64,000 bases of DNA from NCBI GenBank assembly GCA_020284085.1, contig JACEVL010000080.1, positions 752,001 through 816,000 of the forward strand, given 5' to 3'. The DNA is from Aporrectodea caliginosa. Lineage: Eukaryota; Annelida; Clitellata; Crassiclitellata; Lumbricidae. The position numbers were made by a program, and so were the translations under genes. This document shows, piece after piece, positions 25,335-62,900 of the stretch; position 1 is the first letter of the stretch; the number at the start of each line of letters is the position of its first letter. The notes under the pieces are model-generated. The model had not been told where the DNA came from, ran no database searches, and saw only the letters and a program-made list of their open reading frames with translations.

Positions 25335-25758
25335 ATGGAAATGTCTTACGAGGACAAGGACTTCAAAAGGTTTGTTTCGGATAATCTATTCATCGGCAGA
25401 GGATCATTCGGTGATGTGTACGGTCCATGTGACTTGGATGGGAAGAAATGCGCCGTCAAGAAACGATGGCTCACCAATGCTACCAATGAGGATACAGAAA
25501 AAGAGCTGTCTGCTTGTCGTAAATGGATGTCTCTGCATCACAGACATCTTATAAAAGTTTATGACGTAAGTTTGGAACCTCCTGCTGTTTTTAAATTGAT
25601 GGAATACGCTAGTGGAGGATCGTTACAAGAGGTTCTGTCAGCGCGTAAATCTGATCTTCCGTTGGAAATCCTAAAGCACTGGTGCTTTCAGATTGCTGAA
25701 GGCATGGCATATCTGCATGCAAATAACATCGTTCACAGAGATCTCAAGTCGCCGAACA
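25335..25758 (+). CDS. Exon 1: kinase N-lobe through catalytic loop
   Basis: 424 nt encoding residues 1-141 plus one base. It holds the Gly-loop, VAIK Lys, hinge (LMEYASGGSL, gatekeeper probably Met89) and the catalytic loop HRDLKSPN. It ends CCGAACA at donor GTAAGTAT (25,759). The frame beyond the donor runs into a Thr/Ser/Gly triplet repeat, which is intron. Confidence 0.85.

Positions 25759-62900: not shown

Follow-up and report, generated by a model that had tools for sequence, protein, structure and literature searches.

We analyzed a stretch of 64,000 nt of the Aporrectodea caliginosa genome (contig JACEVL010000080.1, positions 752,001-816,000 of the forward strand), here called the window, for a candidate gene that encodes a protein kinase domain followed by a CARD and a further C-terminal domain. 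Six plus-strand exons with GT/AG borders join in phase and contain neither a frameshift nor a stop (Table 1), and an in-frame stop lies two codons 5' of the ATG of exon 1. From exon 4 over the CARD exon to the last exon the phases are 1-1-1, giving a product of 492 or 497 amino acids. In the longer, six-exon model, the kinase spans residues ~14-274, the CARD ~280-371 and a C-terminal alpha/beta domain ~372-497; these three parts and the in-phase joins were computed directly.

Table 1. Position and content of the exons of the candidate gene, with the additional exon of the initial annotation (window coordinates)
Feature	Position	Strand	Content
Exon 1	25335..25758	+	Start Met, GRGSFGDV G-loop, VAIK-type Lys (CAVKK), HRDLKSPN
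Exon 2	32643..32823	+	DFD (not DFG) activation segment, TKTMTNAGT, APE, SDVW
Exon 3	33742..33890	+	Kinase C-lobe
Exon 4	36189..36257	+	C-lobe end, ECLSNDKEKRPSFYNILHELQRL
Presumed exon 5 of the initial annotation	37330..37401	+	24 codons, phase 1-1, unsupported
CARD exon	56354..56641	+	CARD; minimal start 56369; weak donor gtttac
Terminal exon (exon 7)	62518..62900	+	Ferredoxin/RRM-like, TRADD-N-like; GKLL, then TGA

Kinase domain

The kinase domain, spread over four exons, matches the Pfam family PK_Tyr_Ser-Thr (7.1e-54). Comparison with the PDB gave 2602 matches at E<=0.001, the best 60 of which reach down to an E-value of 1.9e-27. Closest are MAP3K9/MLK1 (4uy9, 1.1e-52; 3dtc, 1.2e-51) and MLK4 (4uya, 2.8e-51), followed by DLK (3.5e-40), ZAK (8e-39) and TAK1 (7.2e-33 or weaker), and no RIPK occurs among these best 60 of the 2602. 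One entry labelled EGFR (6.7e-50) is unexplained and was set aside. Judged by its sequence relatives, the domain is an MLK-type MAP3K kinase and not a RIP-type kinase, as the initial annotation had proposed.

The alignment with MLK1 is free of gaps across all three splice joins within the kinase, and the joins are for this reason better validated than by phase alone. We graded splice sites with crude scores, as the share of all GT (donors) or AG (acceptors) in the window that score as well. The donors of exons 1-3 are good (top 1.4, 0.1 and 1.3% of all GT). The acceptor of exon 2 is poor, with 78.9% of AG equal or better, yet the MLK1 alignment runs ungapped over this join. For exon 4, an acceptor farther upstream (..LKMLRLISE..) was rejected; it adds residues, and the start at AATGTC.. 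gives an ungapped MLK match.

The G-loop, the Lys, HRDLKxxN, APE and the C-lobe Arg are all kept, and the sole canonical catalytic motif that is altered is DFG, which reads DFD. Together with the following Q-I, where MLK1 has L-A, this makes three adjacent changes. In the activation loop (TTKMSAAGT in MLK1), three of the four Thr/Ser positions of MLK1 are occupied by Thr and one by Lys, and a new Thr adjoins. DFD also occurs in MNK1/2, whose crystals show a DFD-out conformation in which ATP is blocked (PMC3326643). The motif suggests a kinase that may either be autoinhibited in an MNK-like manner, i.e. active but held off, or be partly losing catalysis.

A crude regular-expression motif search of the plus strand at positions 1-25334 found no SH3 domain upstream of the kinase, and Pfam found no CRIB in the modelled protein, where the CARD comes directly after the kinase. 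MLKs carry a leucine zipper and a CRIB in the place that the CARD takes here.

CARD and terminal domain

The CARD was identified by the Pfam CARD profile, and CARDs are also its best structural matches, Apaf-1 and caspase-9 being closest in fold. Against the PDB, the best match of the exon sequence is a de novo designed protein (0.21), which also leads the profile comparison (0.0015) ahead of the cIAP1 CARD (0.1) and caspase-9 (0.9). Because these sequence and profile matches are weak, we base the assignment on Pfam and fold; by these, a CARD is present after the kinase exons, well above chance, which agrees with the order given in the initial annotation. The domain has no in-frame start ahead of it and therefore needs an upstream exon, the nearest recognized one being kinase exon 4. 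Five relatives of the CARD exon were detected. For the CARD plus exon 7 region of the joined 492-residue protein, none of 653 candidate relatives reached E<=1, in a search whose length limits exclude single exons.

The succession of kinase and CARD is shared with RIPK2, and the gene might accordingly be read as a RIPK2 orthologue. We regard this as very improbable, given the MLK-type kinase with its lack of RIPKs among the best PDB matches and a CARD fold for which the RIP2 CARD ranks lower (2n7z, rank 27, TMq 0.63). In addition, a survey of RIPKs reports a CARD only in vertebrate RIPK2 (PMC9573974).

Exon 7 is, by its conservation, a real coding exon: of 61 candidate relatives, 59 matched with E<=1 (best 5.0e-45). 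These 59, found in one search, are single-exon alpha/beta members with a VVVWIWC core, and none of them has a precomputed Pfam domain; the exon studied here keeps the family-invariant W67, W69 and C70. They seem to form a multi-copy family of animal domains that has no name yet, and its size suggests a lineage-specific expansion. No relatives were found in the viral contig and genome contig collections. Compared with the PDB, the sequence gave three weak matches, the best to apolipoprotein A-IV (0.017), and the profile gave none.

The initial annotation had likened this domain to TRADD-N by its strand-strand-helix look. What stands of this is a real conserved exon and a likeness at the fold level, which is tied with other matches. 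Searches with sequences and profiles (Pfam, hhalign) did not reveal similarity to TRADD-N: no TRADD model matched in two Pfam scans or among the listed 25 of 41 matched families of one further scan; the kinase and CARD profiles, proposed for searching along with TRADD_N, both matched. When the exon 7 family was aligned in hhalign with human TRADD, and not with the DEDD2 or NCOA6 clades, the values were 0.7% and 0.13%, and 39 of 100 shuffles were as good; the first alignment was gappy and the comparison was repeated on window columns. TRADD-N domains have an RRM-like beta-alpha-beta-beta-alpha-beta fold and, according to Kaur et al. 2021 (PMC8195603), carry a uS motif where beta2 turns into beta3. 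At this turn, as predicted by AlphaFold2 (AF2), there is no uS motif, residues 60-63 being D-R-Q-T; T63 is found in 58 of 60 rows of the family, and positions 56-57, still inside beta2, hold a conserved N-S. A TRADD-N-like nature of the predicted fold is plausible but unproven, and the physical link between a MAP3K and TRADD-type complexes drawn in the initial annotation is overstated.

One gene or two

We lean towards a single animal gene with large, transposon-containing introns that would be read as one transcript and encode a kinase-CARD-TRADD-N-like protein of ~497 amino acids. Six of the seven exons of the initial annotation enter this model without phase conflict; its wording that all seven join in this manner is overstated. 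Its exon 5 is presumably the 24-codon segment in Table 1, as adding this segment to the 497-residue model yields exactly the 521 residues stated there; the segment is one of five candidates that passed a crude filter in the gap between exon 4 and the CARD exon, and the frame is the same with or without it. The two joins that link the kinase to the CARD and the CARD to exon 7 are putative, and a match in phase counts for little when the splice site has been picked. Several points weigh against a single gene. The gap between exon 4 and the CARD exon measures 20 kb and carries transposon remains (reverse transcriptase, 48983-49690, minus strand). Moreover, 16.5% of all GT are as good as the mediocre donor of exon 4, and the weak donor of the CARD exon has a score that 37.0% of all GT in the window attain.

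The 20-kb gap would also suit two neighbouring genes, one for an MLK-type kinase that stops with exon 4 or shortly beyond it and one for a CARD and TRADD-N-like protein with its first exon or exons at 36.3-56.3 kb. We judge this arrangement unlikely, though worth serious consideration. Readthrough from exon 4 meets a stop 12 codons on, and relatives of the exon 7 type outnumber those of the CARD (59 versus 5) as if exon 7 had varied partners, a count in which the word-based search favours the VVVWIWC core. ATTAAA signals at 36836 and 37625 carry little weight, as the same signals follow the CARD exon and exon 7. The phase-1 donor of exon 4, on the other hand, fits the phase-1 CARD exon, and the 10 of 52 plus-strand open reading frames (ORFs) of at least 60 codons scanned in the gap contained no known domain, a partial test that misses short exons.

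The weak CARD-exon donor also bears on the idea of a decaying copy, be it a pseudogene or a scrambled locus. At the corresponding place, two relatives of the CARD exon read GGGK/GAGK, which, as read back from protein, is consistent with a g|gtaaa donor, whereas the consensus would have been lost here, and the three adjacent changes around DFG could be seen as drift of the kinase. Decay is nevertheless improbable in our opinion, as all six exons are open, the other catalytic motifs inspected are kept and so are the invariant residues of exon 7. No relative of any exon was found elsewhere in the window (other matches E>=3.8).

Repeats and mobile elements are found around the exons. Triplet and hexamer repeats of ~540 bp (ACTACC, then TAG; 25759-26304) start within ~10 bases of the exon 1 donor and contain a long open poly-T/poly-S frame, which we took as non-coding. 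A GC-rich tandem array of ~21-bp units (GGGGACCCTAGGCCGGTCCCG; 60468-60818) lies ~1.7 kb ahead of the last exon. Apart from the reverse transcriptase mentioned above, ORFs for retroelement endonuclease and/or reverse transcriptase occur upstream (5679-8913, plus strand) and in a further intron of the model (57194-57496, plus strand). Several ORFs at 43320-45250 (plus strand) resemble, by eye, remains of a large DNA-transposon or virus-like element; none of the four scanned matched Pfam. An Rfam scan of the window gave no family at gathering scores.

Possible mechanism and comparison with known systems

MLKs dimerize via their leucine zipper and then trans-phosphorylate. In a single kinase-CARD-TRADD-N-like protein, the CARD might instead bind to or co-polymerize with an upstream CARD protein (NLR-, RLR-, MAVS- or Apaf-1-like) and the assembly would gather the kinase domains in place of the zipper, comparable to RIPK2, which is recruited through CARD contact with NOD1/2 (PMC9573974). 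Such proximity would lead to trans-phosphorylation of the T-rich activation loops, and the activated kinase could trigger a stress or death response of the JNK/p38 type, with the TRADD-N-like domain as a second adaptor or switch. We tentatively propose a CARD-driven MAP3K that arose in an animal lineage independently of RIPK2 by combining an MLK-type kinase, an MNK-like DFD switch, a CARD and a terminal TRADD-N-like domain of a large and diversifying exon family. Assemblies of CARDs would then feed directly into a stress-kinase cascade without RIPK, TAK1 or TRAF; we hold this at less than even confidence.

The likeness to MLK1-4 (MAP3K9/10/11/21) lies in the kinase domain. The protein modelled here differs from them in DFD for DFG, in the CARD after the kinase and in the lack of an upstream SH3 in our crude search, MAP3K9-type kinases being listed with SH3 (PMC9573974). 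With RIPK2 it shares an N-terminal kinase followed by a CARD, but the kinase belongs to another branch, the linker is short and an extra domain follows the CARD. The likeness to MNK1/2 is confined to one motif, and these are CaMK-like kinases.

A further parallel is offered by the large lineage-specific families of Death-like plus TRADD-N proteins described in marine animals, whose variable partners include S/T/Y kinases in Amphimedon; the DEDD2 clade of TRADD-N families also shows associations with retrotransposons (Kaur et al. 2021, PMC8195603). The locus resembles these families in a death-fold domain adjoining a TRADD-N(-like) domain, in apparently multi-copy exons with variable partners and in transposon-rich surroundings. 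It differs from them in its N-terminal kinase and in having a CARD as death-fold domain where a DED is usual, and the TRADD-N likeness is one of fold. In amphioxus, shuffles of DEATH domains and kinases have been reported (PMC9573974). These published fusions (PMC8195603), the DFD motif and the large exon 7 family go beyond the initial annotation. We found no kinase-CARD-TRADD-N protein in the literature, in a search that covered neither supplements (among them the tables in which Kaur et al. list architectures) nor most subscription papers. Overall, the theme is known, and an MLK-CARD order with N-terminal kinase and DFD would be new, with the exact combination possibly in the supplement of Kaur et al. 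The exon 7 family merits annotation whatever the gene structure. If the exons encode one protein, RIPK2 would no longer be the one known signalling protein with kinase and CARD but would be joined by another of independent origin, and a MAP3K would be connected with the Death-like/TRADD-N fusion families that marine animals possess.
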